Shown piece after piece: positions 3,381 to 48,752 of a DNA stretch of 64,000 nucleotides (the stretch's first letter is position 1; every line of letters starts with the position of its first letter). Source of the DNA: Antrihabitans auranticaus (GTDB taxonomy: Bacteria; Actinomycetota; Actinomycetes; Mycobacteriales; Mycobacteriaceae). The translations under genes were made by a program, and so were the position numbers. Below the pieces are notes generated by a model. The model saw only the letters and a program-made list of their open reading frames with translations. It had not been told where the DNA came from and did not search any database. Where the stretch lies: NCBI RefSeq assembly GCF_016481275.1, contig NZ_JAEMNW010000001.1, positions 992,001-1,056,000 on the forward strand, read 5' to 3'.

Positions 3381-3428
3381 TGCCCCCAGTCGGACTCGAA
3401 CCGACACTGTGCGGATTTTAAGTCCGCT
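3381..3428 (-). tRNA. 3' half of the split host tRNA-Leu(UAA)
   Basis: On the minus strand this holds the 3' side of the anticodon arm, a 5-nt variable loop (ACAGT), a T arm (GTCGG / TTCGAGT / CCGAC), the 3' acceptor strand TGGGGGC and discriminator A. The matching 5' acceptor strand GCCCCCA is not nearby; the phage sequence upstream has nothing complementary. It is found at 48752-48746, on the far side of the prophage. As it stands, this half cannot give a functional tRNA. Confidence 0.93.
3416..3428. other. attL: attL core
   Basis: The 13-bp core TTTTAAGTCCGCT is shared with 48714-48726. On the host tRNA strand it reads AGCGGACTTAAAA, covering the 5' strand of the anticodon stem and the whole anticodon loop. 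That is a usual crossover site for tyrosine integrases that target tRNA genes. Confidence 0.92.
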
Positions 3429-3502
3429 TAGTTACCTCTGTTGAGTCCGCTGCACCGCCCTGACCTGCATGTTCTTCGAACAGGGGTCAGGGCGGTTGTC
3501 GT

Positions 3503-3536
3503 TTTGTCACACCAGCTGTGACAACTGTGTGACAAA
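3503..3536. repeat. Arm-type integrase binding sites, left arm
   Basis: Three copies of a TGTGACAA-type motif: inverted at 3503-3511 and direct at 3517-3525 and 3528-3536. The same 9-mer occurs twice beside attR at 48632-48652. Two arms flanking a core, with clustered short repeats, is the usual layout of a tyrosine-integrase attP. The role is inferred from position and repetition. Confidence 0.75.
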
Positions 3537-3609
3537 CCCACGACCGATGACCAGTCCCGATCAGCCGTCGTGTGTGCGCTCAGTTGATCGATATTGCGTG
3601 GCGAAAATC

Positions 3610-4209
3610 TTAAGTTCCGCCCTGAGGCGGTAAATGGGGGTCAAGAATCCTAAGAAGGATCCGTCCGGTCGCCTGCGACAGTAATGCAACCCCGGCATCG
3701 ACCACCATTATGTCTGTAATTGTCCGACTCCAAGAAAGGGAGGAAGTGATAGATCCGGTGCAACCGGCAACATGGTATGTAAGCAAACCCTGCACTTCCG
3801 CCTCTAGAACTGGACTCCTATTCGGTATCCGCTCGACCCCTTCACGATAGCTCCGCACCAGTTCAAACGGATCTACTCGCAGATACAACCCAGGGTATTT
3901 TGATATCTGTTCGATGAGGCACTCATTACATATAAGAAGAGCTACCCTCGGGTCGCTGACACCATGACATTCTCGCTCAATCCGTCGGTTCACATTTTTC
4001 TGTGACAGATCAGCTAACTTACCGAGAAGCTCATCCATGTTCTCAAAGTATTTATAGAACGTTCCGCTACCGACCCGAGCACGCGCAAGCAACCTCTCAA
4101 GCGTGATGGGTTTAGATCGACGCGCCAACTCCACTGCGGCCCGGACGATCTTCATCTTGCTTTGCCGTTCTTTGGTCTGGGCAGCCTTCTGCCTCGGCGT
4201 CAGCACCTC
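3610..4209 (-). CDS. TetR/AcrR-family transcriptional repressor
   Basis: A 199-residue protein. An N-terminal helix-turn-helix of TetR type is visible: KIVRAAVELARRS, then ITLERLLARARVGSGTFYKYF, where the F-Y-x-Y-F motif marks the recognition helix. It is followed by an all-helical C-terminal ligand-binding part. I start it at the GTG at 4209 because the longer frame would run through a promoter and a perfect TetR-type palindrome (4263-4279), which belong upstream of the gene. It is divergent from the rightward operon 4359-8402 and probably represses that operon and itself. The effector is unknown. An alternative start is ATG 4155. Confidence 0.8.
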   Translation of the reverse strand, partial: EVLTPRQKAAQTKERQSKMKIVRAAVELARRSKPITLERLLARARVGSGTFYKYFENMDELLGKLADLSQKNVNRRIERECHGVSDPRVALLICNECLIEQISKYPGLYLRVDPFELVRSYREGVERIPNRSPVLEAEVQGLLTYHVAGCTGSITSSLSWSRTITDIMVVDAGVALLSQATGRILLRILDPHLPPQGGT

Positions 4210-4232
4210 TTTGCCAGTTGTCACAGGTTGCA

Positions 4233-4279
4233 ATGCTAGGACCACAGACAACGCAAGCCAACTTGTTACTACGTAACAA
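4233..4279 (-). promoter_or_regulatory. Promoter of the TetR gene with adjacent palindromic operator
   Basis: On the minus strand a -35 TTGGCT (4261-4256) and -10 TAGCAT (4238-4233) are separated by 17 bases. Immediately upstream is a perfect palindrome of 7-3-7 bases, TTGTTAC-TAC-GTAACAA (4263-4279), the size and shape of a TetR-family operator. It sits between the two divergent genes, so one dimer could control both directions. Confidence 0.6.
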
Positions 4280-4358
4280 CTTGACTTCTCTTGCCTAGAT
4301 GGCATCATCTATCCACGGACCGACGCACGTCAGCCCGAACGTCGAACAGGAGAAGGAA

Positions 4359-4721
4359 ATGACTTCCAACAGCGACAACCGGCCTATCCCATATCGCCGA
4401 GCCGCCCCGCCAGCCCTGCCAGCACCGGCGGGACCAATTCGACGGATCTTCGGCGGCGAACTTGCCAAGCTCGATCGCAATCACGAACTCACGATGCACA
4501 AGGACTTCAACGCCATGGATCGCGCCAACGAGCTGGCACGACGGGTTGCGGCGTACACACACGAACGCATCTCGGATCTCAGTGTCATCACACAGAAGGC
4601 GACAGATGTAGCTCAGCAGAACGACTATGCCGAAGCGCTGGCACCGCGGATACTCGAGCGCCACGACCACATGCAGCAGCAGATTGAGCAAGAAATGGTG
4701 CGGTGGATTCGCAGTCACTAG
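4359..4721 (+). CDS. Hypothetical protein, first gene of the TraG-like operon
   Basis: A 120-residue protein starting at the ATG at 4359, which has a strong ribosome binding site (GGAGAAGG). It has a Pro-rich N-terminus, then a charged alpha-helical region likely to form a coiled coil. No membrane segment and no known domain. It is the first gene downstream of the TetR operator and probably co-transcribed with the genes up to 8402. Confidence 0.65.
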   Translation: MTSNSDNRPIPYRRAAPPALPAPAGPIRRIFGGELAKLDRNHELTMHKDFNAMDRANELARRVAAYTHERISDLSVITQKATDVAQQNDYAEALAPRILERHDHMQQQIEQEMVRWIRSH

Positions 4722-4755
4722 CCGACCGGATCTCACTGAAGGCTAGGTAGTTGGC

Positions 4756-4983
4756 ATGGACGAATTCCCAACCACACCGGAGCGGTTCCCAGCGGTGGCA
4801 AACCCACTTGGTCGCCCGGTCCCGCCCTTGACCCGTCAGGAGTCATGGCAGCTCTACCAATTCGAATACCGGGCTCGCCAAGCACGAGACCGCGCACTCC
4901 GTGAACTGTCGGCTCTAAGTATGGAATGCGTTGTCCGAGAGCTATACGGCAACAGTCGCCCGGTCGTCTGGAACCCTCAGTAA
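4756..4983 (+). CDS. Small hypothetical protein
   Basis: A 75-residue, Arg-rich, probably helical protein with no recognised domain, in the same direction and spacing as its neighbours in the operon ending with the TraG-like ATPase. The start ATG at 4756 follows only a weak AAGG-type ribosome binding site. Confidence 0.55.
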   Translation: MDEFPTTPERFPAVANPLGRPVPPLTRQESWQLYQFEYRARQARDRALRELSALSMECVVRELYGNSRPVVWNPQ

Positions 4984-4997
4984 GGATGTGATCTGAA

Positions 4998-5261
4998 ATG
5001 TATGGCGACGCAACACCACTGGACGAGCAGAAGATCCTCAACGAGCTAGCGCTCTTCTTCGACGAGGTGCAGCTCCGTTTCCGGCAAGCGGACTACGCGA
5101 TGCGAATGTCGGCAGCGAGCTTGAAGCGCAGGCTTCCAGCCGACACGCACCATTTGATCGACTCGGTTGTCGCGCAGCACGCGTGCGACCTAACCAGAGG
5201 CTCCATGCCGCAGGACTGGCGTACCAAGCTTCACAACGTCAAGGTCGGTCGGTCGCAATGA
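4998..5261 (+). CDS. Small hypothetical protein
   Basis: An 87-residue, mostly helical soluble protein that follows an AAGGATGTG ribosome binding site. Its stop codon overlaps the start of the next gene (ATGA at 5258-5261), so the two are probably translationally coupled. No family recognised. Confidence 0.6.
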   Translation: MYGDATPLDEQKILNELALFFDEVQLRFRQADYAMRMSAASLKRRLPADTHHLIDSVVAQHACDLTRGSMPQDWRTKLHNVKVGRSQ

Positions 5262-5440
5262 GATCCAAGAGCATCTTCAGCTTCGGTTGGGCGCTTCTCT
5301 TCATCATGGTCGTCGGTCAGATGTTTATCGCATTCGCGTCTGATTACGTCGGCTGGGTGCTTTTCAGCGTGTTCTTCATTGGGGGCTACATCATCCTCAG
5401 GCGCGCAGTCAAGGCATACCGATACGCCAAAGGTCTATAG
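5258..5440 (+). CDS. Small two-helix membrane protein
   Basis: A 60-residue protein with two membrane segments (about residues 6-25 and 30-46) and a basic C-terminus. The start is the ATG that overlaps the upstream stop as ATGA. A tiny membrane protein just before a DNA-translocating ATPase with its own membrane anchor could be its membrane partner; that is inference from position. Confidence 0.65.
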   Translation: MRSKSIFSFGWALLFIMVVGQMFIAFASDYVGWVLFSVFFIGGYIILRRAVKAYRYAKGL

Positions 5441-5475
5441 ACCAAACACTCGGAAATTGAGACAGTAGGAGGTAG

Positions 5476-7878
5476 ATGAATGAAGCAATCATCTACCTCC
5501 TATCTGTTTCTTTGGTCGGAACCCCGGCCTACTTCGCATGGGACAGATGGGACAAGAAAATGAGAGTCAAACAACGCCAACAAGATATTGCTCGCGACCG
5601 CTACGAACTGATCCACCAAACCGGGCTGTCGGAGAGTGCAGTGAACGCAGGCATTCGCTCGCTGGGCAAGAACATGGAGTCCGACTTCGCAGCGTGGGGA
5701 CCACAGCCGACAATCTGCTTCGAGGTTGCAGCATCGAGTTCCGGTATCAGTCAGAGGATTCACGTTCCCTCACGAGACAGCGAGTACGTCGTTGGCCAGC
5801 TTGAAGCGCACATGCCGGGAATCGATATCACGCCATACGAGTTCGAGCCGACCACTTTCGAAGAGTTGGTCGAGGAGATCAGATCGAACGACAGTCGACG
5901 TAGGAGCGTCGAGTATCAGTTCGGGGTGGAGCTAATGATGACCAATCCTTTACGGTCGTTGCGACTCCCAGCCGCAGACGTGCAATCGGCCAAGTTGCTC
6001 AAGGCCATCCAGACCGACTTTCCCGACGAAGAAGTGCTGTACCAGTTGGTCGTTCGGCAAACCGACCGCGTGAAAATTCCCGAGGACGGGCGCGTCACCA
6101 AAGCGCGGCCGGGATTTGTCGAAGCGTTCCTCACCGGCACCGACGCCGGTAAAACCGAGGTGTCCGACCGACGCCTGAAGGCAAGCGAACCACAGTTCGT
6201 CGTATCGGGTCGGATAGCTGCGCGCGCGAGCGACCCGAAGCGCGCGGAGCAACTGGTCATGAAGGTGATGCGTGCGCTCAAGAGCGAAGACAACCAGACG
6301 AACAAGTTCTACGGCAAGAAGGTCAAACCTCGCCTGTTGAACGACATGGTCAATAACGCGCTGACCCCGCGCCGGTTTGGGATGCAGCTAAGTTCATCGG
6401 AACTTTCTTCCTTGCTGGCGTGGGGTATAGGAGACCCTCAGATAGCAGGCATGCGCCAAGGTATCGCTCGACGACTCCCGACAACAGATGCGATTCCTCG
6501 TGTCGGTCGCGTACTAGGTGATAGCGACGTCTCTGGGAGAAAGCGCCCGGTGGCGGTTTCGTACGAATACACAGGTCACCATATGTTCGTTGCCGGAATG
6601 ACTGGTAGCGGAAAGAGCGTCGCTATGTCCAACTATGCGATACAGGACGCCACCGCAGGGTACGGAGTCACGGTCTTCGATGGAGGCGTTGACATCTCTC
6701 GGCAGCGCCTCCACTACCGATTCTTGGGGGCAATGCCACGGGCGCGCCGCGACGATGTGGCCGTAGTCAGCCCGATGGACGACGCCACTTGCCCTCCGTC
6801 GATCAATTTCCTGGACCAAGACTTTGGCATGGAAGCGATCGATCTCATCGCAGGGGTGTTTGAGGCGATGTATCCAAGTATCCGAGAGGGTGTCGCGTTC
6901 CGCGAGCTTCTTCATCACGGTCTATGGACGCTGGTCGAGCGCGGCGGTTACACCTTCATTGATCTGGCATCCCTGATAAGTCCTCGCAACCCGGCAGAAC
7001 ACGCGTGGGCCGTGGATCTGATCGAAGGCGTGAAAGATCCAGAGCTGAAGGATTTTTGGGCGCGATATCCAGGTGCGAAGGCCGCGCTAGGCGACCGCAG
7101 GCGTGACAGGTGGGATCAGTACGTCGAACCGCTCCTTCGCCGAGTTTGGCAGTTGGCTGGTAGGCCGGAAATTCGCAACATCATCGGTCAGACCAAGAGC
7201 ACGATCAAGTTCCGCGAGTTCCTTCAAGAAAACAAGATCCTGGCTATTAGCTTCGCTGGCATGCCGCCAGCCAGCGCGGAGCTGTTGGCCGCGCTCTTCA
7301 ACGCGTTCATGTGGGCGGCAGCCCAGAAGGCCAAAGCCACTAAGCCAAACTTCGCCTATCTGGATGAATTCCAGATTATGAACAATATCCAGGGTGGGAT
7401 CACCGACATCTTGGCCCGTGGCCGTGCGCTGAACTATCACCTGGTACTCGGCACGCAGTTCATCACCAATCGCAACATATCTGCTGAACTGCGAGACGGC
7501 ATTGTCGCCAACACCGGTACGCGTGTTCTCTTCAAGGCTGCTTCCACCGACGAAGCGCGTCTCTGGTCGCGTGTACTCGGTTCGGATCGGGTGTCTGAGA
7601 CTGATCTACTACGACAGCCTCGATTCCACGGCATCGCACAAATCATGACCGGCGACGATGGCAAGCAAGATACAAGACCGGTCACGTTCAAGGCACTGCC
7701 CGAACCGCCCGAAACCGATATCGAGTTCGCCATCCGTGAAATGAGTCGGCAAAAGTATGGCCGCCCTGTCGATGAAGTCCGCGAGGAGATCGCTACGCGT
7801 CGGCGACTAAAGCTGACCAGACCGCCTCTTGACGAAGGACCAATCGGCTTGGCTTCCGAGGAGGATTACGACGAATGA
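5476..7878 (+). CDS. VirD4/TraG-like (HerA-FtsK superfamily) DNA-translocating ATPase
   Basis: An 800-residue protein preceded by a strong ribosome binding site (AGGAGG). It has one N-terminal membrane helix (residues about 3-20), a region of about 330 residues resembling the N-terminal part of type IV coupling proteins, then a RecA-like motor. The motor has Walker A GMTGSGKS near residues 374-381, Walker B FAYLDEFQ near 626-633, and the following RGRALNYHLVLGTQF helix typical of TraD/TraG C-terminal (TraM recognition) domains. In conjugative elements such proteins bring DNA to a membrane channel. No other type IV secretion gene is seen here, so it may act in phage DNA handling, plasmid-like transfer or defence. 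Family assignment is solid; role is inferred. Confidence 0.85.
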   Translation: MNEAIIYLLSVSLVGTPAYFAWDRWDKKMRVKQRQQDIARDRYELIHQTGLSESAVNAGIRSLGKNMESDFAAWGPQPTICFEVAASSSGISQRIHVPSRDSEYVVGQLEAHMPGIDITPYEFEPTTFEELVEEIRSNDSRRRSVEYQFGVELMMTNPLRSLRLPAADVQSAKLLKAIQTDFPDEEVLYQLVVRQTDRVKIPEDGRVTKARPGFVEAFLTGTDAGKTEVSDRRLKASEPQFVVSGRIAARASDPKRAEQLVMKVMRALKSEDNQTNKFYGKKVKPRLLNDMVNNALTPRRFGMQLSSSELSSLLAWGIGDPQIAGMRQGIARRLPTTDAIPRVGRVLGDSDVSGRKRPVAVSYEYTGHHMFVAGMTGSGKSVAMSNYAIQDATAGYGVTVFDGGVDISRQRLHYRFLGAMPRARRDDVAVVSPMDDATCPPSINFLDQDFGMEAIDLIAGVFEAMYPSIREGVAFRELLHHGLWTLVERGGYTFIDLASLISPRNPAEHAWAVDLIEGVKDPELKDFWARYPGAKAALGDRRRDRWDQYVEPLLRRVWQLAGRPEIRNIIGQTKSTIKFREFLQENKILAISFAGMPPASAELLAALFNAFMWAAAQKAKATKPNFAYLDEFQIMNNIQGGITDILARGRALNYHLVLGTQFITNRNISAELRDGIVANTGTRVLFKAASTDEARLWSRVLGSDRVSETDLLRQPRFHGIAQIMTGDDGKQDTRPVTFKALPEPPETDIEFAIREMSRQKYGRPVDEVREEIATRRRLKLTRPPLDEGPIGLASEEDYDE

Positions 7879-8093
7879 TTAAGTATTCCTTTGATTTGCG
7901 ACCTGATCAGATAGCGCCGATTGAAAGAATGATCGATGAAGCACACGGCCTAGCTGAAGCAATCAACGACCTTATAAAGGACGAAGACTCAGCGCTCGCG
8001 GCCATGCTGCTCGTGACACTTAATGCGTATCTCGAGCACGTCCAGCGCTGTGTTCTGAACGTCGTTGGCCTGCCACAGTTTCGGAAGGACTAG
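7875..8093 (+). CDS. Small hypothetical protein
   Basis: A 72-residue soluble, acidic, helical protein. The start overlaps the ATPase stop (ATGA), so it is translationally coupled to the TraG-like gene and probably works with it. No recognised domain. Confidence 0.65.
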   Translation: MIKYSFDLRPDQIAPIERMIDEAHGLAEAINDLIKDEDSALAAMLLVTLNAYLEHVQRCVLNVVGLPQFRKD

Positions 8094-8402
8094 ATGATGG
8101 ACGAGGACGAGGCAATTCAGGAATTCGCCAACTTTGTCATGGGAAGTGCGGACGAAATCTCAGGCCTAGGGGCCGACGTCGAGCGCCTGCTGCACGCCAT
8201 AGATCAGGCGAAAAGCACCTGCGAGGACCTAATTCGCTACACACGGTTCAGCAACGACGCCGAAGACTACGAAGTTGTCGAGCGGGGTCGGTCGGTTGAT
8301 CGTTCAGTCGCTGCAGCCGTTGCTTCCATGCGAAGCGACATTATCAACGCAGGCAGCACCGCGAACGACTTGTCGCGCGTGCTTAAGTTCTACAACCACT
8401 GA
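8094..8402 (+). CDS. Small hypothetical protein, last gene of the TraG-like operon
   Basis: A 102-residue acidic, helical protein directly after the previous stop, with a GGAAGGA ribosome binding site inside that gene. The operon ends at the strong terminator at 8455-8490. No recognised domain. Confidence 0.65.
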   Translation: MMDEDEAIQEFANFVMGSADEISGLGADVERLLHAIDQAKSTCEDLIRYTRFSNDAEDYEVVERGRSVDRSVAAAVASMRSDIINAGSTANDLSRVLKFYNH

Positions 8403-8454
8403 GTACCACGCGACGAACGGGAGGACGCGACCCGATCAGATGTGAACTAGAAGG

Positions 8455-8490
8455 AATCACCCCGCCTTCCAAACAGAAGGCGGGGTGATT
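8455..8490. terminator. Bidirectional terminator between convergent units
   Basis: A perfect 15-bp GC-rich stem (8455-8469 with 8476-8490) and a 6-base loop, with a T-rich tract on the right for rightward transcripts. It separates the TraG-like operon from the convergent lsr2 gene and can serve both. Confidence 0.9.
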
Positions 8491-8501
8491 CTTTGTCCCT
8501 G

Positions 8502-8888
8502 TCAGCCAGCGTGCGCGGCGTCGTACGCATCCTGTACTGACCGTGAGATCCGTCCTCGCTCGGACACCTCATGCCCGTTCTTCTTCGCCCACTCTCTGAT
8601 GTTGGCCAGCTCTTCTTTGGAACGACCCGACCCAGATGCTTTAGGTGACGAGACTGAAGCGGTCGATGCTGCCTTGCGTGGTCGACCGCGTGTCCCGGTA
8701 ACTTTCGCAGCGGCGGCTACCCACTTGGACAAATCTTTCCTGAACTTCTCTGCGTTTTCGGGGCGCAGATCGATCCGGTAGGTTGTTCCTTCGAAGCCGA
8801 ACTCAATCGCCTCGGCCAGGCCTTCTTGAATCTCCTTGCCGTCGAAGTCGTCGGTAACCTCGATGACCTGTTTGACTATGCGCGCCAT
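8502..8888 (-). CDS. lsr2: Phage-encoded Lsr2-like nucleoid protein
   Basis: A 128-residue protein with the typical Lsr2 layout. The N-terminal dimerisation domain includes the TTYRIDLRPENAEKFR region. A linker rich in Ala, Ser, Gly and Arg, including RGRPRK, follows. The C-terminal DNA-binding domain has IREWAKKNGHEVSERGRIS, where the R-G-R loop enters AT-rich minor grooves. Lsr2 bridges and silences AT-rich DNA in actinobacteria. In a prophage lower in G+C than its host, a private copy could compact the phage genome or interfere with host silencing. It starts the leftward block from its own promoter. Confidence 0.93.
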   Translation of the reverse strand: MARIVKQVIEVTDDFDGKEIQEGLAEAIEFGFEGTTYRIDLRPENAEKFRKDLSKWVAAAAKVTGTRGRPRKAASTASVSSPKASGSGRSKEELANIREWAKKNGHEVSERGRISRSVQDAYDAAHAG

Positions 8889-9020
8889 GATAAGAATTCC
8901 TTTGACTGGAGGTTGCTTAGCCGATAGTACACATAGGCAACGTATAAGGCCGCGTATGAGGCTGAAGACTGCAAACTAGGAAAGTATCCATGTGGAGCCC
9001 TTGCACGCAGCGAGACGTGT

Positions 9021-9224
9021 CTAGGCGATGTCTGAGCGGACAATCTGGACTAGTTCTTCATACCGAGCGATGATGCCGCCTATCTCGTCGTCGCTTAAGA
9101 ACCCTGACCGTCTCCACTCCGCGACGTGATCCTCAGTGAGATCAATGTGTTCGCGAAGGATGGCAGCAGCGAAGACATCTGCGAAGTGGCTATCTTCATC
9201 GACGCCGTTTCGCAGGAACTCCAT
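9021..9224 (-). CDS. Small hypothetical protein next to the holin
   Basis: A 67-residue acidic soluble protein, last in the leftward lysis group. Its start lies three bases after the holin-like gene stop. No recognised domain. The 130 bases from 8889 to 9020 hold the lsr2 promoter region and no gene. Confidence 0.55.
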   Translation of the reverse strand: MEFLRNGVDEDSHFADVFAAAILREHIDLTEDHVAEWRRSGFLSDDEIGGIIARYEELVQIVRSDIA

Positions 9225-9227
9225 GGC

Positions 9228-9425
9228 TTAGCCTTCTTGAGTGAAGAGCTTCTTGATCGTGACTAGAGAGAGGTTAACCACCGGGAGTAAAGGCCCGAAC
9301 AAGTCTTCGTTCTGTGCTACCCATGAGATCAGCGCGCTCAGCACACTCGAGATCACGAGATAGAGCAGTGCTCGTAGGATGTCATGCCATTGCTGTTTGG
9401 TGAGCTTTGTGAGTTTTAGTTCCAT
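9228..9425 (-). CDS. Probable holin
   Basis: A 65-residue protein with a basic N-terminus, one clear membrane helix (about residues 15-37), a second hydrophobic stretch (about 42-58) and a short charged tail. Size, topology and position directly after the endolysin gene fit a phage holin, which makes membrane lesions that release endolysin. Holins share little sequence, so the call rests on topology and context. Confidence 0.7.
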   Translation of the reverse strand: MELKLTKLTKQQWHDILRALLYLVISSVLSALISWVAQNEDLFGPLLPVVNLSLVTIKKLFTQEG

Positions 9426-9433
9426 ATGCCTCC

Positions 9434-10126
9434 TTACTTTTTCCTTCGATATACTGGCTGGCCGAGTACTGTGCCGACTTCTTCAAATTGATCTGCGCCA
9501 GCCGCTTTGAGCTGAGCCTCAAGCTGCTTGATCCTTGCCTGCAATTCGTCGTAGGCACCCGCACGAAGCCGAAAGCTCTTGCTTTCCTGGTAGTTCAGCA
9601 TGTTCTGAAGTACCTGAGTCTTTGGGTTTCCGATATTATTCATGAAGACCTGGTTAACCTCAGGCTGTACGTTCATCGCCAATACTGTTGCGAGCGCGAC
9701 GAATTCTCGATCTGCTATGTCATTCATGTCTTGTCCTTTCAGTCTTAAATATCCCAGGAAGCCTTGCGAGAACATGTGATTGATGCTCACGACGCGGCTT
9801 CCGCCGTAGTTCTGATTCAAAATGCCACCCTTGTACTTGATGCCGATGTGCCCTTCCGGACCAGTCCAGTTGCCTTCATCGTCTGTCCAGACGGCAACGT
9901 CGCCATCCTGGCTCTGCGCGACTGGAACTCGTTCAAATAGCGCGAGCACCTGCGGATTGAAGTAATAGTCCCGAGCGTGACCCCACACCGCTGTCTTGAT
10001 ACCAAGAACTTCCTCCATGTAGAGACGCACATAGCTGACACACTCACCGACGTACGTTCCAGTTCCAGGATTGCCGTATGACCTTCCGAGCGTGTTGTTC
10101 TTAAACTGCTCGAGGCTGATGGTCAT
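9434..10126 (-). CDS. Endolysin with N-terminal CHAP domain
   Basis: A 230-residue protein. Cys29 in GECVSYVRLY and His93 in GPEGHIGI, preceded by GDVAVW, form the Cys-His pair of a CHAP amidase/endopeptidase, which cleaves peptidoglycan peptides or the amide bond. The C-terminal third has a short coiled-coil stretch rather than a recognisable LysM or LGFP wall-binding domain. There is no signal peptide, so export depends on the adjacent holin. For a phage of mycolate-containing bacteria a separate mycolyl esterase (LysB) might be expected; I do not see one here. Confidence 0.85.
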   Translation of the reverse strand: MTISLEQFKNNTLGRSYGNPGTGTYVGECVSYVRLYMEEVLGIKTAVWGHARDYYFNPQVLALFERVPVAQSQDGDVAVWTDDEGNWTGPEGHIGIKYKGGILNQNYGGSRVVSINHMFSQGFLGYLRLKGQDMNDIADREFVALATVLAMNVQPEVNQVFMNNIGNPKTQVLQNMLNYQESKSFRLRAGAYDELQARIKQLEAQLKAAGADQFEEVGTVLGQPVYRRKK

Positions 10127-10128
10127 GA

Positions 10129-11552: not shown

Positions 11553-11564
11553 GGTGAGGTCCTC

Positions 11565-42284: not shown

Positions 42285-42672
42285 ACGAGGTGTAAAGCCA
42301 CAGACAGTCGCTGACTCAGTGGACATCGCTCTAACGAGCGTGAATGCCATCCGCCAGGCAAAGACCTGGGCAGAGTGGAACCGCCGTAAAGAGACGAAGG
42401 CCGCCAAACTCGTTCTTCAACGCAAGTTCGGCGTAGCTCCGGCGAAAGCCGAACCCGTTCAGACTCCCGCGCAGGTCGACATATCCGAACGCCTAGCGAC
42501 CATCGAACGTCAAGTTCTAGACATACACGTCGCAGTAGTTGGGTCAGTCGAACCGCGGGTAAGGACGAACCGACTACTGATTCGAGAGCTTGATCGTACG
42601 AAGCTTGGCCGATTCCTGATCAACCGCATTGCCCGCGCAAACGGTGTCCCTAAAGACTGGAGGACTAAGTAG
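42232..42672 (+). CDS. Hypothetical protein with helix-turn-helix-like N-terminus
   Basis: A 146-residue protein starting at ATG 42232 (GGAAGG ribosome binding site), overlapping the ERF gene by 53 bases. KRGVKPQTVADSVDIALTSV resembles a helix-turn-helix, followed by a linker and a helical C-terminus. Possibly a regulator or replication helper. Confidence 0.6.
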   Translation: MKKQIDQKTFQQVLTSLKRGVKPQTVADSVDIALTSVNAIRQAKTWAEWNRRKETKAAKLVLQRKFGVAPAKAEPVQTPAQVDISERLATIERQVLDIHVAVVGSVEPRVRTNRLLIRELDRTKLGRFLINRIARANGVPKDWRTK

Positions 42673-42942
42673 ATGCCTGGCACTATCGAGGGCGGCAAGC
42701 AAGCCGCCCGTACGAACAAGGCTCTGTACGGTCCAGACTTCTACCGCCGCATTGGTGCTATGGGTGGCGCAAAAGGAACCACTGGTGGATTTGCCGCTAA
42801 CCCTGAACTCGCACGGATCGCGGGTGCGAAGGGTGGCAAAAAGAGCCGACGCCGTCGAGCTAACGAGACAGACAGTCAGTACGCAGACCGTCTTGCTGCA
42901 CATCGCACAAAGGGAACTACTCAGCCGAGGTTCGAATGGTGA
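42673..42942 (+). CDS. Small Gly/Lys-rich protein
   Basis: An 89-residue basic protein with repeated G-G-A-K-G and A-G-A-K-G-G-K-K-S motifs resembling the KGG repeats of small stress-related proteins. It starts one base after the upstream stop. Its basic repeats may bind nucleic acid. Confidence 0.6.
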   Translation: MPGTIEGGKQAARTNKALYGPDFYRRIGAMGGAKGTTGGFAANPELARIAGAKGGKKSRRRRANETDSQYADRLAAHRTKGTTQPRFEW

Positions 42943-43220
42943 GCGAGACTGCAACGCTATTCGACATAAACGAGGTGCCTGAGCGCCTACGGATCAAACG
43001 CAACAAGGACGGCACACTCCGGTCATCGGATTTGAAAGCAGTCCAGTGGTACTTAATCGAGCACACTCTCAAACCGAAGGCCGCATCTGCGTATCCCCTC
43101 ATCTACTTCGCTGACCGCCAGGGACAGGAGGTTTGTGTAAACATCACGGAGATCGTTGAGGAGTACCGCGCATTCCGCAAGGCTGCCGCAAAGGCTGCTC
43201 GAAAGAAGAACGCCGCATGA
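42936..43220 (+). CDS. Hypothetical protein
   Basis: A 94-residue protein (VSETATLFDINEVPERLRIK...) overlapping both neighbours. The C-terminus is Ala/Lys-rich and basic. Its coupling to the serine recombinase by ATGA suggests a linked function. Confidence 0.6.
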   Translation: MVSETATLFDINEVPERLRIKRNKDGTLRSSDLKAVQWYLIEHTLKPKAASAYPLIYFADRQGQEVCVNITEIVEEYRAFRKAAAKAARKKNAA

Positions 43221-43903
43221 GCAAGATCGTCGCCTACGCCCGCGTCAGCACCGATAAGCAAACGGTAGAAAACCAGCTCTTTGAAATCACAAACTACTTG
43301 GCACGCGAACAGCGCAAGTACGACGAAGCCGTCGTGGAAACGATTTCAGGCATGAAGTTGGTGGCAGACCGCGAGCTTGGTCGGCTGATGGATGAACTAG
43401 ACGAGGGTGACACGCTTATAGTCAGTGAGACGAGCCGTATCTCTCGACGCTTGGGCGAAATCTACGCGACGATCCAGTACTTCCTAGACCGTGGCGTGAT
43501 CGTGATCGCTGTTAAGCAGAATTATCGGTTCGCCAATGACATCCAGTCCAAGGTGATCGCCTTCGCATTCGGGATCGCCAGCGAAATCGAGCGCGACCTG
43601 ATTTCGTCTCGTACGAAGGAAGCGCTTGCCCGCTTGAAATCAGAAGGCAAGCGACTTGGCCGACCACCGGGCTCAGGCAATCCAGACAAGTGGCTCCTGG
43701 CCGGGAAGGACGAGGAGATTATGAACTACTTGGACAAGGGCGTTTCAAAAGCAGCCATAGCGCGCCTGTACGAAGTTGACCGGGACACGGTTCGCAACTA
43801 CATCGCGGCCAAAAATCTCGAACACACGTTGCGCACGCGCAAATTGAATGATGCCTTGCTAGCGGAACGGACTTGGCACGGCGTTCAGAACCGCAGACTT
43901 TAA
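43217..43903 (+). CDS. Small serine recombinase (resolvase/invertase family)
   Basis: A 228-residue protein. The catalytic domain starts IVAYARVSTDKQ with nucleophile Ser11, includes DTLIVSETSRISRR with the conserved arginines, and is followed by the long E helix. A GRPPGSG hinge leads to a C-terminal helix-turn-helix (GVSKAAIARLYEVDRDTVRN). This is the size of Tn3-type resolvases and Gin-type invertases, not of large integrases. Since the phage integrates by a tyrosine recombinase, this enzyme must do something else: inversion, dimer resolution or plasmid-state maintenance. Confidence 0.9.
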   Translation: MSKIVAYARVSTDKQTVENQLFEITNYLAREQRKYDEAVVETISGMKLVADRELGRLMDELDEGDTLIVSETSRISRRLGEIYATIQYFLDRGVIVIAVKQNYRFANDIQSKVIAFAFGIASEIERDLISSRTKEALARLKSEGKRLGRPPGSGNPDKWLLAGKDEEIMNYLDKGVSKAAIARLYEVDRDTVRNYIAAKNLEHTLRTRKLNDALLAERTWHGVQNRRL

Positions 43904-44050
43904 ACACCCGATTTCAACAAGGCCACCACAATCGCCGAACTTGACTCTCGAAGCTCGCCAAACATTGATCTTGCGAAATGGGCAAGTCCGTGTCGAAGGT
44001 AGTGAACTATGTTTCACTTGACAATTACAACTCAATATGGAGGATTCACA

Positions 44051-44095
44051 ATGGAACTATATATGGACCCGCTCGCAATGGGAAAACGGCTATGA
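44051..44095 (+). CDS. 14-codon leader peptide before the winged-helix gene
   Basis: MELYMDPLAMGKRL follows a strong GGAGG ribosome binding site and its stop overlaps the next start (ATGA at 44092-44095). The next gene has no ribosome site of its own, so this peptide probably couples its translation. An inverted repeat GTGAA/TTCAC lies upstream at 44002-44017. Confidence 0.5.
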   Translation: MELYMDPLAMGKRL

Positions 44096-44391
44096 CACTT
44101 CCCCGCACTCTCAACGAAGCCGTCGAGCAGCAGCTCGAACCCACCACTCAGACAGGACGCATTCTCAAGATCCTGCAGAAGGACGGCGAAATTACTAACG
44201 CGCAGATGTGGCGCATGAAGATCCAGCGCGGATCTGAACGAATCAGGGAGCTTAAAGCTGAAGGTCACGTCATCCGGAGCATCCACCTGAAGGGTCCGTA
44301 CTGGATCTATATGTATGACGGGCAGGGGTCGCCCGAGAGGAAGTCGCGACTCCGCAGCCTCTTCAAGAAGATCCGCAAGGCGCTCAAATGA
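44092..44391 (+). CDS. Winged-helix DNA-binding-like protein
   Basis: A 99-residue protein. TQTGRILKILQKDGEITNAQ followed by RGSERIRELKAEGHVIRS resembles the winged-helix domains of phage and plasmid proteins that detect DNA. The C-terminus is basic. Likely regulator of the late part of this rightward block. Confidence 0.65.
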   Translation: MTLPRTLNEAVEQQLEPTTQTGRILKILQKDGEITNAQMWRMKIQRGSERIRELKAEGHVIRSIHLKGPYWIYMYDGQGSPERKSRLRSLFKKIRKALK

Positions 44392-44504
44392 ACGAGGACG
44401 AACCCGTACCCACGTTCATCTATGTGACTGTCGTCTGCGTCGCTGGAGTACTACTCCTGATCGCGGCATGGTTCGCAGCAACTATATATACAGGAAGCTT
44501 TTAA
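44388..44504 (+). CDS. 38-residue single-pass membrane protein
   Basis: An acidic N-terminus (MNEDEPVPTFIYVTVV) followed by one membrane helix. The ATG overlaps the upstream stop as ATGA. Length and coupling fit a small phage membrane protein. Confidence 0.6.
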   Translation: MNEDEPVPTFIYVTVVCVAGVLLLIAAWFAATIYTGSF

Positions 44505-44512
44505 GGAGGCTC

Positions 44513-44704
44513 ATGAAAGATACGATATCGATTTCTCTAGGTTTAATTCAGGGGATCATTGGAACCCTAGTCATACTTGGCGTTCTGCCGATCATCGCAG
44601 TGGCGTGGCTCTGGGCAGTCATGGGGTTCATCCTCTTCGCACTCATGCTGTCCGTAACGATGGTAATGGTGTTCACCAAAGATGGCGACCGACAAGACTA
44701 TTGA
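44513..44704 (+). CDS. 63-residue two-helix membrane protein
   Basis: Two membrane segments (about residues 8-27 and 30-53), an acidic C-terminus and a strong AAGGAGG ribosome binding site. It could be a second holin-like or superinfection-related protein. Confidence 0.6.
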   Translation: MKDTISISLGLIQGIIGTLVILGVLPIIAVAWLWAVMGFILFALMLSVTMVMVFTKDGDRQDY

Positions 44705-44745
44705 ACCAATATAAGTCCGAGTTATACTCATAGGGGGAGCAAGTA

Positions 44746-44859
44746 ATGAAGTATAGTTACATTCCTACCGGCGTCGATGAAGTTCACCGTCGCATTCGTA
44801 GGTCGAAGGCCAAGCGGCTCGCCGCTCAGAAGAAGGCCGCATCCAAACAGAGCACATAG
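44746..44859 (+). CDS. 37-residue basic protein
   Basis: Starts MKYSYIPTGVDEVHRRIRRS and is Arg/Lys-rich throughout; a GGGGGAG ribosome binding site precedes it. Likely nucleic-acid binding by charge only. Confidence 0.5.
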   Translation: MKYSYIPTGVDEVHRRIRRSKAKRLAAQKKAASKQST

Positions 44860-45144
44860 TTGAGCGGTTGCCCTTATGGCCGTGTTGAGATCTGTCACTC
44901 AACGGCAACCCCTCGCATTGACCTGGTCGCTGTTCCAAACAGAGCATCGTCCAGGGCGTACGACACCGGCTCGTCGTGCGCTTGGTACCTACCCAAATTC
45001 ACCGTGCCTCGCCCGTCGGCATGGACTCCTCGATTAGAAATGTGGATCAAAAACGTAGATTTCAAAGACGGGCACCCAGTCATCCAGCCGCAGCGTCAGC
45101 TTTTTCCGACCCCCGGAAGGCTGGCAGAAGGCTCGGCGGGATGA
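44860..45144 (+). CDS. Doubtful ORF with TTG start
   Basis: A 94-codon frame begins with TTG directly after the previous stop and has no clear ribosome binding site. The end (MWIKNVDFKDGHPVIQPQRQ) looks protein-like. Without it, about 300 bases (44860-45167) would be gene-free. Low confidence. Confidence 0.3.
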   Translation: MSGCPYGRVEICHSTATPRIDLVAVPNRASSRAYDTGSSCAWYLPKFTVPRPSAWTPRLEMWIKNVDFKDGHPVIQPQRQLFPTPGRLAEGSAG

Positions 45145-45167
45145 CCGGGTGAAGGAACCCATTAGAT

Positions 45168-45380
45168 ATGAAGCACGAACAACTATTTGGCGAAGAGCCT
45201 GGACTGATCTCACGCGATGACTGCATTGATCTGTTAGGCACGCCCGAGAAACAAGAGACACGAGACTGGTTGGTGAGCTACGCGATCCGACTGCTCAGTC
45301 TTGCCGATGAACTGACCGACAGCCTCAGGTTAGAAGGTGAAGAACCTAAGCGGCCAAAGAGTCGGATCTATCACCTATGA
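45168..45380 (+). CDS. Small acidic protein
   Basis: A 70-residue acidic helical protein, starts MKHEQLFGEEPGLISRDDCI, coupled by ATGA to the HNH gene. No family recognised. Confidence 0.6.
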   Translation: MKHEQLFGEEPGLISRDDCIDLLGTPEKQETRDWLVSYAIRLLSLADELTDSLRLEGEEPKRPKSRIYHL

Positions 45381-45733
45381 GCGTTGAGCGACTGTGCAAG
45401 GTCTGCGGCAAAAGGATCGTCGTCTACAACACGATCCAGAACAAGTGTCGCGACTGCACGATAAAGAACACCAAACCAATCGCACAGCAGGGTAAGCACG
45501 CTCGGCTCTGGAAGACATTTAGAGACAAAGTGGCTATCCCCTACCTGGACAAGAAGTTCGGACATGTCTGCAGCGTGAGTGGTTGCAACGAGTCGAAGAA
45601 CCTTGATGTCGACCACATCAAGAGTCGGGGGTCCAACCCCGGCCTTCGCTACGACGTGAAGAACCTTCGCTACCTCTGCCGACCACACCACATCGAGCGA
45701 ACCGGAACGGTGCAGTGGTCCCAAAAGTCTTGA
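45377..45733 (+). CDS. HNH endonuclease
   Basis: A 118-residue protein. An N-terminal zinc knuckle (CKVCGKRI and CRDC) is followed by the HNH core CSVSGCNESKNLDVDHIKSR, then NLRYLCRPHHIE. In many phages an HNH nuclease assists terminase and lies beside it. Here it is far from the terminase in linear order, though the attachment site and early genes separate them less on the circular form. A homing or recombination role is possible. Confidence 0.88.
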   Translation: MSVERLCKVCGKRIVVYNTIQNKCRDCTIKNTKPIAQQGKHARLWKTFRDKVAIPYLDKKFGHVCSVSGCNESKNLDVDHIKSRGSNPGLRYDVKNLRYLCRPHHIERTGTVQWSQKS

Positions 45734-45785
45734 TCGCGGGATAAAACCAGTAGCTCATCCGGCTGCTGGTCCAATCCCGAGATCA
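45731..45785 (+). promoter_or_regulatory. Hairpin abutting the ribosome binding site of the first DUF3846 gene
   Basis: Stacked helices TGATC/GATCA, CGGGAT/ATCCCG and an 8-bp CCAGTAGC/GCTGCTGG stem with a 7-base loop, 19 bp in total. It starts at the HNH stop codon and ends one base before the AGAGGA ribosome site of the next gene. There is no T run, so it is more likely a translational or stability element than a terminator. Confidence 0.6.
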
Positions 45786-45796
45786 GAGGACGCACC

Positions 45797-46291
45797 ATGA
45801 AAACCATTGTTGGCCTTGTTGTTCCTGCCGATATGGAGGAGCCCGTTACAGAGCTTCGTTTCGTAAGCGACGACGCCCTGAATGCCATGCAGAAGGTCGT
45901 TGGCGGTTATGTCGATGTTGTCGACACAGCGTTACCGGAGACGACCGTGTGGCTGAACGACGAGGGAATGATCAAGTACCTCGAACCGAATCCCCGCGCC
46001 ACCATGTTCATCTGGGCAGGAGCGCCACGTCGGCGCGGCGGCCAGGCCTACTACGGCGACGTACTCATCACTGGCCAACCAGACGAAGAGGGAAACACCA
46101 CGTCCCTTCCCGATGAACTGCTCGATCTGATCCTCCGAACGGACGAGTACAAGATCGAAGTTCAGACCGGCGGCGATAGCTGGGCTGGCAACGGCAAGAG
46201 GTTCGCCGACTATTGGATAGCTCTGCACTATGTACTTGAGCTGGCCGAACGGTGGGTCTTGGTAACCAACGTACGAGTGGTCGCATCCTGA
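45797..46291 (+). CDS. DUF3846-like protein, paralogue 1
   Basis: A 164-residue protein. TIVGLVVPADMEEPVTEL, QKVVGGYVDVVDT, TTVWLNDEGMIKYLEPNPRA and GDVLITGQPDEEGNTTSLP follow the DUF3846 pattern. It is related to the next gene over its full length. DUF3846 proteins are frequent in actinobacteria, their phages and plasmids, with unknown function. Confidence 0.75.
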   Translation: MKTIVGLVVPADMEEPVTELRFVSDDALNAMQKVVGGYVDVVDTALPETTVWLNDEGMIKYLEPNPRATMFIWAGAPRRRGGQAYYGDVLITGQPDEEGNTTSLPDELLDLILRTDEYKIEVQTGGDSWAGNGKRFADYWIALHYVLELAERWVLVTNVRVVAS

Positions 46292-46302
46292 TCAAACAAA
46301 GT

Positions 46303-46328
46303 CCCCGGCGCAAGCCGGGGCAGCTTTC
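46303..46328 (+). terminator. Terminator between the two DUF3846 genes
   Basis: CCCCGGC/GCCGGGG with a GCAA tetraloop, followed by CAGCTTTCT. It separates the paralogues, so the second needs its own promoter. Confidence 0.85.
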
Positions 46329-46338
46329 TATCTGTGGG

Positions 46339-46344
46339 TACGCT
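46339..46344 (+). promoter_or_regulatory. -10 element for leaderless transcription of paralogue 2
   Basis: TACGCT fits the actinobacterial TANNNT -10 pattern and ends 7 bases before the ATG at 46352, leaving no space for a ribosome site. It lies directly after the terminator. Confidence 0.5.
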
Positions 46345-46351
46345 TCTAGCC

Positions 46352-46669
46352 ATGACCCTGATCGACGCCGTACTCATACCCGCTGACCCCGCCAAAGATG
46401 TTGAGCGCGTTCAATTCGCGCCGAGTGACCTGAAGTATCTGCAAACAGCAGTGGGCGGCTACATCGAGCCAGTGAACCATCAGACGCCACCTTCAACTGT
46501 GTTCGTCAACGAGGACGGTGCGAACAGCGATCTACCGCCCAATACACGAGCAACCCAGTACTTACTAGGAACACCAATCAAGGGCAATGCCGTAGTGACT
46601 GGAACCGCGAACAGTGCTGGCGATGTCACCTCAGTCAGTAAGACAGTGTTAGAGATTTTCGGCTTTTAA
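46352..46669 (+). CDS. DUF3846-like protein, paralogue 2
   Basis: A 105-residue shorter relative of the preceding protein: AVLIPADPAKDVERVQFAPS, QTAVGGYIEPVNHQ, TVFVNEDGANSDLPPNTRAT and GNAVVTGTANSAGDVTSV. The tandem pair arose by duplication, but the second has a separate promoter and terminator, so they may act at different times. Confidence 0.75.
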   Translation: MTLIDAVLIPADPAKDVERVQFAPSDLKYLQTAVGGYIEPVNHQTPPSTVFVNEDGANSDLPPNTRATQYLLGTPIKGNAVVTGTANSAGDVTSVSKTVLEIFGF

Positions 46670-46676
46670 AGTAAAG

Positions 46677-46728
46677 ACCCCGCATCCACCGAGACTTTTG
46701 GTCTCAAAGTGGATGCGGGGTTGTTGTG
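46677..46728 (+). terminator. Very strong terminator closing the rightward block
   Basis: A 13-bp outer stem (ACCCCGCATCCAC with GTGGATGCGGGGT), a 5-bp GAGAC/GTCTC inner stem and TTGTTGTGT after it. It also insulates the converging gene 46759-47076. Confidence 0.9.
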
Positions 46729-46758
46729 TAGTAGGGACAGTTGATACGGGGGCTTCGT

Positions 46759-47076
46759 TCAGTCCTCGCTACCGGGGATGAACCCCTTACGTCGACCCTT
46801 GTTCGAGTCGAGTTCCGGGAGCTTGTCGGCAGGAATCAGCTTGCTGAACTCGGTCACAGTGGCGAACACATCCTGCGTGTTCCCATCCGCACGAGTCACT
46901 TCCAGCTTGACGATGTTGCCGACCGTCTTCAACGCTTTCAGCTCTTCCTCCGAGGTGTCGAACTTCCGAGCTGGCCCGTTCAGTGCCGGATGCTCTCGGA
47001 TCGTGACTTCGATTACCTCTTCTTTTCTGAGCTCGTTTCCGGTGACGTCGCTTACGCGAACCGAACGAAAACCCAT
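46759..47076 (-). CDS. Hypothetical protein divergent from the integrase
   Basis: A 105-residue mixed-charge protein starting at the ATG at 47076 (AGGTGA ribosome site). It has a beta-rich N-terminus (GFRSVRVSDVTGNELRKEEV) and a charged tail. The position opposite the integrase is often that of an excisionase or repressor, but no helix-turn-helix is visible, so it is left unnamed. Confidence 0.6.
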   Translation of the reverse strand: MGFRSVRVSDVTGNELRKEEVIEVTIREHPALNGPARKFDTSEEELKALKTVGNIVKLEVTRADGNTQDVFATVTEFSKLIPADKLPELDSNKGRRKGFIPGSED

Positions 47077-47177
47077 TTGGATCACCTGTTTCTAGGTAAG
47101 GTGCGAACGCGATAGCGGATGCCATCACTGCTCTATTTATGAGGCATTTTGCTATTTAAGTAAATACCGAATCGTGC

Positions 47178-47241
47178 GATAATGAGGGCACAATGAAAGC
47201 CGTGCTGCAACACGGCCAATACTCATAATAAAGCATTGGCC
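47178..47241 (+). promoter_or_regulatory. Integrase leader: -10, 11-codon ORF and two exclusive hairpins
   Basis: GATAAT (47178-47183) is followed by an 11-codon frame (MKAVLQHGQYS, 47193-47228). Two hairpins share bases: GCCGTG/CACGGC (47199-47216) and GGCCAAT/ATTGGCC (47214-47241). They cannot form at once, a layout seen in attenuators where translation of a short ORF picks the fold. The integrase ribosome site lies just after. Confidence 0.45.
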
Positions 47242-47261
47242 TTCTGCAGGATAGGAGGTGT

Positions 47262-48671
47262 ATGAAGATTCAGGTATTAAATTCCCCGAGTAGAATTGAG
47301 GGTAGCCCGATTGGGCACATCCCCCTATCTATCGAGGTACCCCCCGCAATGACGAAACGTCGCCAACTGCCACCAGGAATTAAGCAGTACACACTTCAGA
47401 ATCGCATAAACGGCAAACCAGAAGTCCGATACGAGATCTGCGTCGGGGTTGGGACTGTCGACGGTAAGCGAAAACAGGTGCGCACACGAACTGACGCCGA
47501 TGATCAGCCGCTCAAGACCGAGGCACAGGCACGCGCTGAGCGGGCTCGTCTACTTGCCGCTGTCTCCACAGGCTCCTACGTCCACACGAATGATCTATCT
47601 GTTGCTACGGCCTGTGACAACTGGTTGCTGTCAAAGCACGGTCTCAAACCGTCGACTTTGCGCGGCCATCGCAGCAAGCTGGCGGCGCTGACTGCCAATC
47701 TGGGGAAAGTCGAGGTTCAGAAGCTCAACAAGGCGCAGCTTGACCGCCTGGTTCGAAACCTTCGGGCCGGTACGGCTAAGGGCTGCAAGAAGCCGTGGTC
47801 ATCCCGATCTGTGAACTATCTGCTCTACCTGACGGGGGCAGTGCTCGAGAGCGAGCTGAAACAGGGGCACCTGCAGAAGAACGTCGCAGCCCTGGTTGAT
47901 CGGCTTCCTTCTGAGCGTGAAGAGATGAAGACGCTCACCGAAGAGCAGATGTTCAAGATCTTCGATCATGAGTGCCGGGATCGCCACCTCTGGACGCTGG
48001 CACTTTACGGGCTGCGCCGCGGTGAGATTGCTGGGCTCAAATGGGAGCATATCGACTTCACGGCGAAGACGGTCACTATTGCCGTGAACCGAGTAGCCGC
48101 TGGAAAGCTCGTTCATATTGGCTCACCAAAGTCCGCCAGGAGCCGCCGAGTGTTGCCTATGCCGGATGACCTAATTAATGCGCTCAGAGCGGCGCACAAG
48201 CAGCAGTTGATCGATCGACTGGCCAGTGCCAGCTACACAGGTACAGGTGAGTACGTCGCCTCGTACCCCAATGGCGAACCGTACAGTCCGAACCTCATCA
48301 CGTTCCGGTGGGGAAAGCTCCTGCGCGAGCTGGAGATCCCCCCCGTTCGTCTACACGACGCACGGCACTCCTGCGCCACGCTGATGCACAAGCGCGGCGT
48401 TCCGATTGCCGATATCGCTGCATGGCTTGGACACGCCTCAGCGGCCTTCACTCTGTCGACGTACGCCCACAGCCAAGCCGACTCGCTTATGGCGGCTGCA
48501 CAGAGCTTCCGTAGGATCGACGGGCTAGCTCCCGTAGCCCAATTGGCAGAGGCAGACGACTTAAAATCGTCACAGTGTGGGTTCGAGTCCCACCGGGAGC
48601 ACTCTGCCTCTACGCTGAGTTCTCCGCGAGCTGTGACAAATCCTGTGACAAATGACGCGGTGGGAGCGTGA
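47262..48671 (+). CDS. int: Tyrosine integrase whose 3' end contains a tRNA gene
   Basis: A 469-residue protein with an N-terminal arm-binding domain (to about residue 95), a core-binding domain (about 105-200) and a catalytic domain. Motifs are ALYGLRRGEIAGLKW (first Arg), LHDARHSCATLMHKRG (H-x-x-R), WLGHAS and STYAHS (nucleophile Tyr near 400). The last 50 residues are not integrase sequence: residues about 422-447 are the translation of tRNA-Leu at 48528-48601. It recombines the 13-bp core, with TGTGACAA-type arm sites on both sides. An AGGAGGTG ribosome site lies close to the ATG; a second start at 47349 is possible. Confidence 0.95.
   Translation: MKIQVLNSPSRIEGSPIGHIPLSIEVPPAMTKRRQLPPGIKQYTLQNRINGKPEVRYEICVGVGTVDGKRKQVRTRTDADDQPLKTEAQARAERARLLAAVSTGSYVHTNDLSVATACDNWLLSKHGLKPSTLRGHRSKLAALTANLGKVEVQKLNKAQLDRLVRNLRAGTAKGCKKPWSSRSVNYLLYLTGAVLESELKQGHLQKNVAALVDRLPSEREEMKTLTEEQMFKIFDHECRDRHLWTLALYGLRRGEIAGLKWEHIDFTAKTVTIAVNRVAAGKLVHIGSPKSARSRRVLPMPDDLINALRAAHKQQLIDRLASASYTGTGEYVASYPNGEPYSPNLITFRWGKLLRELEIPPVRLHDARHSCATLMHKRGVPIADIAAWLGHASAAFTLSTYAHSQADSLMAAAQSFRRIDGLAPVAQLAEADDLKSSQCGFESHREHSASTLSSPRAVTNPVTNDAVGA
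48528..48601 (+). tRNA. Phage-borne complete tRNA-Leu(UAA)
   Basis: A 74-nt cloverleaf: acceptor GCTCCCG/CGGGAGC (7 bp), D arm GCCC-AATTGGCAGA-GGC, anticodon arm GACGA-CTTAAAA-TCGTC with anticodon UAA, 5-nt variable loop ACAGT, T arm GTGGG-TTCGAGT-CCCAC, discriminator A. CA of the 3' CCA is only partly encoded (AC). All loops equal those of the split host tRNA, while acceptor, anticodon and T stems carry paired substitutions (2, 2 and 1 base pairs). Leucine tRNAs usually have a long variable arm; both copies lack it. It decodes UUA, a rare codon in the high-G+C host but common in the phage. Confidence 0.93.
48632..48652. repeat. Arm-type integrase binding sites, right arm
   Basis: Two direct TGTGACAAA copies (48632-48640 and 48644-48652), matching those at 3503-3536. 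A shared CTGACCTGCA also lies near each core (about 3460-3469 and 48681-48690), perhaps an accessory protein site. Confidence 0.75.
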
Positions 48672-48713
48672 ATAACCCCTCTGACCTGCAGAGATTCGCG
48701 TCGAGACATTGTT

Positions 48714-48726
48714 TTTTAAGTCCGCT
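48714..48726. other. attR: attR core
   Basis: Second copy of TTTTAAGTCCGCT. To its right follows the 5' half of the host tRNA; to its left phage sequence. Confidence 0.92.
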
Positions 48727-48752
48727 GCCTCTGCCAATTGGGCTATGGGGGC
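48714..48752 (-). tRNA. 5' half of the split host tRNA-Leu(UAA)
   Basis: Minus strand: acceptor strand GCCCCCA, D arm with AATTGGCAGA loop, 5' side of the anticodon stem and the anticodon loop CTTAAAA. It ends where phage DNA begins. Joined with 3415-3381 it gives a 74-nt tRNA with a perfect GCCCCCA/TGGGGGC acceptor. In the lysogen its promoter now drives transcription into the phage, antisense to int. Confidence 0.93.

Follow-up and report, generated by a model that had tools for sequence, protein, structure and literature searches.

In 2024, tRNA-dependent lysogeny was reported from phages of Mycobacterium and Gordonia (PMC10865867). In Table 2 of the 2024 paper, the rows without reconstruction of the host transfer RNA (tRNA) concern Lys-TTT, Ile2-CAT and Leu-CAA, with attachment cores of 8-17 bp. 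Here we analyse a 64,000-nucleotide stretch of the Antrihabitans auranticaus genome (Mycobacteriaceae; assembly GCF_016481275.1, contig NZ_JAEMNW010000001.1, positions 992,001 to 1,056,000), hereafter the window, whose positions are used throughout. It contains a prophage that breaks the host tRNA-Leu(UAA) gene within the anticodon arm and carries a tRNA of the same anticodon, and this prophage very probably practises tRNA-dependent lysogeny.

Two mycobacteriophages of the 2024 study resemble this locus (PMC10865867). Gaia (cluster X) has a tyrosine integrase, an 8-bp core in a host tRNA-Leu gene that is not reconstructed, and its own tRNA-Leu downstream of int on the same strand. Unlike the window prophage, it carries tRNA-Leu(CAA), which begins 287 bp past int, whereas the tRNA of the window lies within the integrase open reading frame (ORF). 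Fionnbharth (subcluster K4) has a 10-bp core, breaks a single-copy tRNA gene and encodes a tRNA of the same isotype that overlaps and extends the 3' end of a protein gene, but the tRNA is tRNA-Lys(TTT), and the gene it overlaps is gene 37, on the opposite strand, rather than int. In Sinorhizobium meliloti, two prophages similar to Mesorhizobium phage Lo5R7ANS inactivate a tRNA-Leu gene by mid-gene integration and carry a tRNA of similar function; in contrast to the present case, this is tRNA-Leu(UAG), and the host belongs to the Alphaproteobacteria (PMC11476347).

The same tRNA as in the window is the target of Rhodococcus phage REQ2 and of relatives at an intact tRNA-Leu(UAA) gene (loci L079, L085, L159 and ten more), with integrases 49-65% identical to that of the window in the best segment and with similar repeats where shown. 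In contrast to the window, the phage attachment site (attP) of REQ2 carries the 3' half of tRNA-Leu(UAA), and the tRNA is intact in the 13 relative loci. The phiLM21-like prophages at Sinorhizobium tRNA-Leu(UAA) rebuild the tRNA (PMC12429752). A 2026 preprint on phage tRNAs defines tRNA-dependent lysogeny in its background (PMC13015707), and a 2026 survey of Rhodococcus phages names it once, in the reference list (PMC13313380). According to this survey, Rhodococcus phage Whack is temperate, closest to REQ2 and without a recognisable match to a bacterial attachment site (attB); a core as short as those of tRNA-dependent lysogeny would account for the missing match. No tRNA-dependent case at tRNA-Leu(UAA) was recognised in our literature search, which covered open PubMed Central papers, mostly at the level of listings.

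The window fits this known mode of lysogeny: it combines a tyrosine integrase, an attB in a host tRNA gene, a short core that does not rebuild the gene, a phage tRNA and a non-redundant host tRNA. New are the isoacceptor (UAA), the different integrase group, and the position of the tRNA, in sense within the 3' end of the integrase ORF.

The split gene, its junctions and the phage tRNA

The 5' half of the host tRNA-Leu(UAA) gene lies at the right attachment junction (48714..48752, minus strand). Its 39 nt are 100% identical to positions 1-39 of the tRNA that is intact in related genomes, and comprise the 5' strand of the acceptor stem, the D arm, the 5' strand of the anticodon stem and part of the loop. 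The 3' half, 48 nt at the left junction (3381..3428, minus strand), is 100% identical to positions 27-74 and contains the anticodon arm, a short variable loop, the T arm and the 3' strand of the acceptor. The halves overlap by 13 nt, AGCGGACTTAAAA, which gives 39+48-13 = 74 nt counted to the discriminator base. This sequence is the attachment core, found on the minus strand in a left copy (3416..3428) and a right copy (48714..48726) and common to both tRNA halves. A search for the core yielded 12 bp (GCGGACTTAAAA), and the thirteenth base was added by reading the junctions; the 12-bp sequence occurs at two places only in the window, and two matches were seen in 0 of 100 shuffles. The original prediction, made from the letters of the window, had placed the halves at 48752-48714 and 3428-3381, and reading of both junctions showed these positions to be exact. 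It had also proposed that the halves rejoin to a 74-nt cloverleaf, and ARAGORN indeed typed the empty site, joined at the core, as a complete tRNA-Leu(taa) with a full cloverleaf (75 bases by its own count).

The phage tRNA-Leu(UAA) is the single tRNA found in the prophage. It was called on the plus strand at 48528..48602 by ARAGORN and at 48528-48601 by Rfam RF00005 (61.8 bits, at the gathering threshold), in agreement with the full gene predicted there. It differs from the host tRNA at 10 of 74 positions (86% identity); the ten differences make up five compensatory pairs (3:71, 7:67, 29:43, 30:42 and 52:64), and all other positions are identical. Both tRNAs fold alike, with z about -3.3 each, and the phage copy looks selected for function. 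The 5' members of the changed pairs 29 and 30 fall within the attachment core, and these changes may make the phage's integrase less able to target the phage tRNA. A donor was found neither in 121 genomes of the order, where the closest match is 92% identical and belongs to another family (without ARAGORN typing), nor among viral contigs: 14 of these, picked by an exact 21-nt pattern, share the anticodon stem, and the best of the six compared at full length is 85% identical.

The claim that neither junction restores the tRNA stood up as well. Over the whole window, ARAGORN called one tRNA only, the phage copy, and none at either junction. At the right junction, Rfam finds no match even with E<=10 allowed; the stretch formed by the host 5' half and the adjoining phage sequence folds like its shuffles (z 0.26). 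A canonical attP would carry the 3' half of the tRNA; at the right junction, no 3' half is present past the core. The idea that attP retains a degraded 3' half was also rejected: the right-junction sequence ACAATGTC..TCGA resembles ACAGTGTCGGTTCGA, and its local alignment to the host 3' half was equalled in 795 of 2000 single-base shuffles; among the attP stretches of six relatives given the same test, the best fraction was 0.0565 (L099).

A tRNA match is found at the left junction (3381-3447); its score, 26.4 bits, is below the gathering score of 29. It consists of the intact host 3' half continued by phage sequence. On the strength of this match one could suppose that the left junction yields a working tRNA without a D arm; we regard this as extremely improbable, given that the D stem is absent, two acceptor pairs are mismatched, the score stays under the threshold and ARAGORN calls nothing at this junction. 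By its sequence, the remnant is not a rebuilt gene.

We keep to tRNA-dependent lysogeny as the working model, with the following steps. The tyrosine integrase would recombine attP with attB at a site within the anticodon arm of the only tRNA-Leu(UAA) gene found for the host. As the sequence shows, attP shares only 13 bp with attB and lacks a 3' tRNA half, so that integration has cut the host gene in two. The phage tRNA-Leu(UAA), encoded after the integrase domain and ahead of the arm-type sites, would take over the decoding of UUA; expressed in the lysogen and charged with leucine, it would keep the lysogen alive. A lysogen that lost or did not express it would be unable to translate UUA, in gyrA and secF among other genes, and would die or grow poorly.

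The integrase reading frame and arm-type repeats

The integrase ORF (47262..48671, plus strand, 469 aa) matches Pfam PF00589 (E 5e-20) and PHROG phrog_1 (E 1e-61), and the core motifs of tyrosine recombinases are present in the alignment. Similarity to related integrases stops at ~48521, about residue 420, and the last 48 codons of the ORF are read in sense through the tRNA and the arm-type repeats. In 39 integrase relatives, the frame continues for 0-27 residues past the match, often as VTTRDTETG.., compared with 48 in the window. Apparently the usual C-terminal end of the integrase has given way to the tRNA.

A repeat search and a pattern scan against shuffles identified candidate arm-type sites on both sides of the core. 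Two direct repeats TGTGACAAAT (48632..48653, plus strand) are on the integrase side, between the phage tRNA and the core, and three TGTGACAA repeats are on the other side (3504-3511, minus strand; 3517-3524 and 3528-3537, plus strand). In total, five TGTGACAA repeats flank the two cores, and five of the 11 copies of TGTGACAR in the 64 kb lie at these flanks. Repeats of the TTGTCACAA type occur at a similar place in the integrase relatives. By analogy with published attP sites, the repeats are putative arm-type integrase sites.

The best BLASTP segments between the window integrase and those of Fionnbharth, Gaia and LeBron, three phages known for tRNA-dependent lysogeny, have 26, 25 and 22% identity, respectively; in each case similarity is still detectable (E 1e-11 or better). 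The window integrase would thus represent a third group, by best-segment identity, a crude measure that stands apart from the published phamily assignment, which was not rerun. We speculate, quite tentatively, that tRNA-dependent lysogeny arose independently in a third integrase lineage with the destroyer and the rescuer of the host tRNA fused, the tRNA and the attP arm sites encoding the C-terminus of the integrase. If this doubtful possibility were true, the tRNA would be hard to lose without touching int, and read-through of int could link the expression of integrase and tRNA.

Probable dependence of the host on the phage tRNA

Genome-wide, RF00005 gave 49 matches, of which ARAGORN typed 48 at the match itself; the 49th (L048, 31.9 bits) received no ARAGORN call. 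The sole Leu(taa) among the 48 typed tRNAs is the phage copy. The leucine anticodons of the genome are CAA, CAG, GAG and TAG, with TAA in the prophage only. Neither the host tRNA nor the phage tRNA, used as DNA queries against the genome, picked up a further Leu(UAA) gene. A second intact tRNA-Leu(UAA), which would have refuted the original prediction, is listed by neither approach, and by genome content the broken host tRNA appears non-redundant. Under standard decoding rules, UUA is read solely by the UAA anticodon. The bacterium probably depends on its prophage for tRNA-Leu(UAA), because the only chromosomal gene found is broken and the spare copy resides in the prophage.

Each of the other three genomes of the genus has a single copy, 99-100% identical and typed as Leu(taa). 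In two of them (G001 and G002), the intact tRNA has the neighbours seen in the window, genes for a Ppx/GppA phosphatase and enolase; the available stretch of the third (G003) has no match to the window flanks apart from the tRNA itself. The doubt whether the two halves belong together is thereby settled in favour of the prediction, as related species carry an uninterrupted tRNA composed of these halves, in two of three at the syntenic place.

The window is part of a 1.7-Mb contig in a 6.51-Mb genome. Among the named loci scanned, its enolase is most similar to those of Rhodococcus and Rhodococcoides (88-89%), as expected of a Rhodococcus-like actinobacterium. The assembly consists of 24 contigs, and one could imagine that a second gene is hidden in a gap, or that excised cells with an intact attB coexist in the population, either of which would abolish the dependence. 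Such an effect of assembly or population is most unlikely, however, given that both junctions lie on a single contig, that completeness is given as 99.94% and that the three related species show a single copy each.

The possible cost of losing the tRNA was assessed in a 400-kb sample of host sequence (20 chosen stretches, crude gene calls of at least 150 codons). TTA occurs in 56 of 286 genes and makes up 65 of 103,781 codons, or 0.63 per 1000. Scanning 30 of the 56 genes against NCBIfam left several without a clear name; those named include gyrA, in a fragment that ends with the sampled stretch and scores below the curated cut-off, and secF, above the cut-off. The TTA codons of both lie within the reading frames. 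Both genes are generally regarded as essential.

Several observations weigh against dependence on the phage tRNA. UUA is rare in the host sample. The prophage uses TTA at 2.83 per 1000 codons by crude gene calls, about 4.5 times the host sample. No convincing sigma-70 promoter precedes the phage tRNA on its own strand, and the sub-threshold match at the left junction counts weakly in the same direction. The rarity of UUA in the host and its greater use by the prophage would suit a phage tRNA that serves mainly in lytic growth, either for the UUA-richer phage genes or as a replacement for tRNAs cut by host defences, the loss of the host tRNA being merely tolerated. The bldA tRNA of Streptomyces, which is dispensable for growth, offers an analogy for tolerated loss where UUA is rare. 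We consider this unlikely all the same: the tRNA is the sole one found in the prophage, adjoins attP and corresponds exactly to the broken host tRNA, and TTA is present in 56 of the 286 sampled host genes, gyrA and secF included. A second role of the phage tRNA, in helping phage translation, is possible.

tRNA-dependent lysogeny, the mechanism named in the original prediction, is supported by a split single gene, by the lack of rebuilding and by a phage tRNA of the same anticodon. The proposal that the phage brings its own replacement holds at the level of sequence, in that an intact tRNA of the same anticodon is present. That integration would be lethal or costly unless this tRNA works, as the prediction had it, is an inference; UUA codons do occur in gyrA and secF.

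Related integrases, prophage content and the origin of the split state

Related integrases were collected from 121 genome loci, of which the best 80 were kept, and from 66 viral loci, giving 146 loci considered. We examined 111 of these, comprising all 80 genome loci and 31 of the 66 viral loci; the remaining 35 are mostly of low identity. An intact minus-strand tRNA lies at most 300 bp after int in 59 of the 111 loci; 19 others end too soon, two have a plus-strand tRNA and 31 have none within 300 bp. At 13 of the 111 loci, an intact Leu(taa) is found 53-81 bp after the integrase match; these were chosen for an intact tRNA, and the intactness is not a separate result. A second split Leu(taa) was not seen among the 111 loci. 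Nineteen loci were followed by blast, and four of them (L096, L113, L119 and L162) lack both a tRNA and a long tRNA half close to int, making further tRNA-dependent cases possible among the integrase relatives. A pattern for a split tRNA beside an arm repeat matched nothing in viral contigs. At two loci (L126 and L156), an intact tRNA-Gly(ccc) lies 72-85 bp after int, in reverse of the usual orientation.

In a tree of 38 integrases, from which three rows with stops (L080, L125 and L133) were dropped, the window integrase sits alone on a long branch within a supported set of 15 (100/99); the other members are seven further Leu rows and seven rows located at another tRNA or at none. Within that set the branching is open and the Leu label requires several changes, so the tree points to no immediate ancestor. 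The split state looks derived, because relatives of the integrase located at this tRNA have left it whole, and a second split gene was not encountered.

When 301 genomes of the family, the host's own included, were searched at the DNA level for the host tRNA, 300 gave matches; the search lists best places, with at most three candidates scored per genome, and a split gene elsewhere is possible. Thirteen genomes with weak best scores were followed, and 12 of them have a tRNA-Leu(taa) called by ARAGORN; the thirteenth (G050) has pieces at contig ends and no ARAGORN call. Weak-score genomes such as G044 and G295 are outside these 13.

Traces of other elements at this attB were observed in several genomes. 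G002 has a 47-bp copy of the 3' half ~41 kb from its intact tRNA, an arrangement that resembles a canonical element using this attB. The host side of the window next to the 3' half (3297-3380) and the sequence after the intact G002 tRNA (L074) align over 73 bp at 89% identity, ~48 bp of which are tRNA, and an identical 23-bp double repeat is common to window 3297-3380 and the sequence directly after that tRNA; this hints at an older element that once used the same attB. In G290, a 42-bp copy of the 5' half of tRNA-Leu(UAA) (C1:955801-955842) lies 23 kb from an intact copy (978982-979055; L259 and L245), and the half copy, with the divergent 3' half of the intact copy, perhaps marks another element at this site. 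The Mycobacterium abscessus prophage prophiGD02-2 opens with 47 bp that are 95.7% identical to the tRNA 3' half and appears to use the same attB.

The prophage itself spans 45.3 kb (about 3429..48713). By PHROG and Pfam matches, its recognised genes include those for terminase large subunit, portal, head protease, tail, tape-measure, endolysin, Erf and integrase. The portal is at most 31% identical to isolated phages among the 15 listed of 1070 records, and below 60% in all 1070; three IMG/VR contigs reach 49%. One of the three, a 43-kb record (L266), has no match to the window integrase, an empty result that shows little, and the search for kin phages through portal relatives was unhelpful. 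The prophage region also encodes an FtsK/TrwB-like DNA translocase (5476-7878), a relaxase-like replication-relaxation protein (39966-40826) and a DNA invertase family protein (43217-43903), a set that seems unusual for a phage.

Taken as tRNA-dependent lysogeny, this locus places the published mechanism outside laboratory hosts. It is a natural lysogen in which, by genome content, the phage tRNA is the sole one found to read a sense codon. It also provides an integrase group with canonical and tRNA-dependent members at one attB, and the question left by the 2024 paper, whether the phage tRNA preceded attP's loss of the tRNA half or followed it, becomes testable. The host may be addicted to its prophage.

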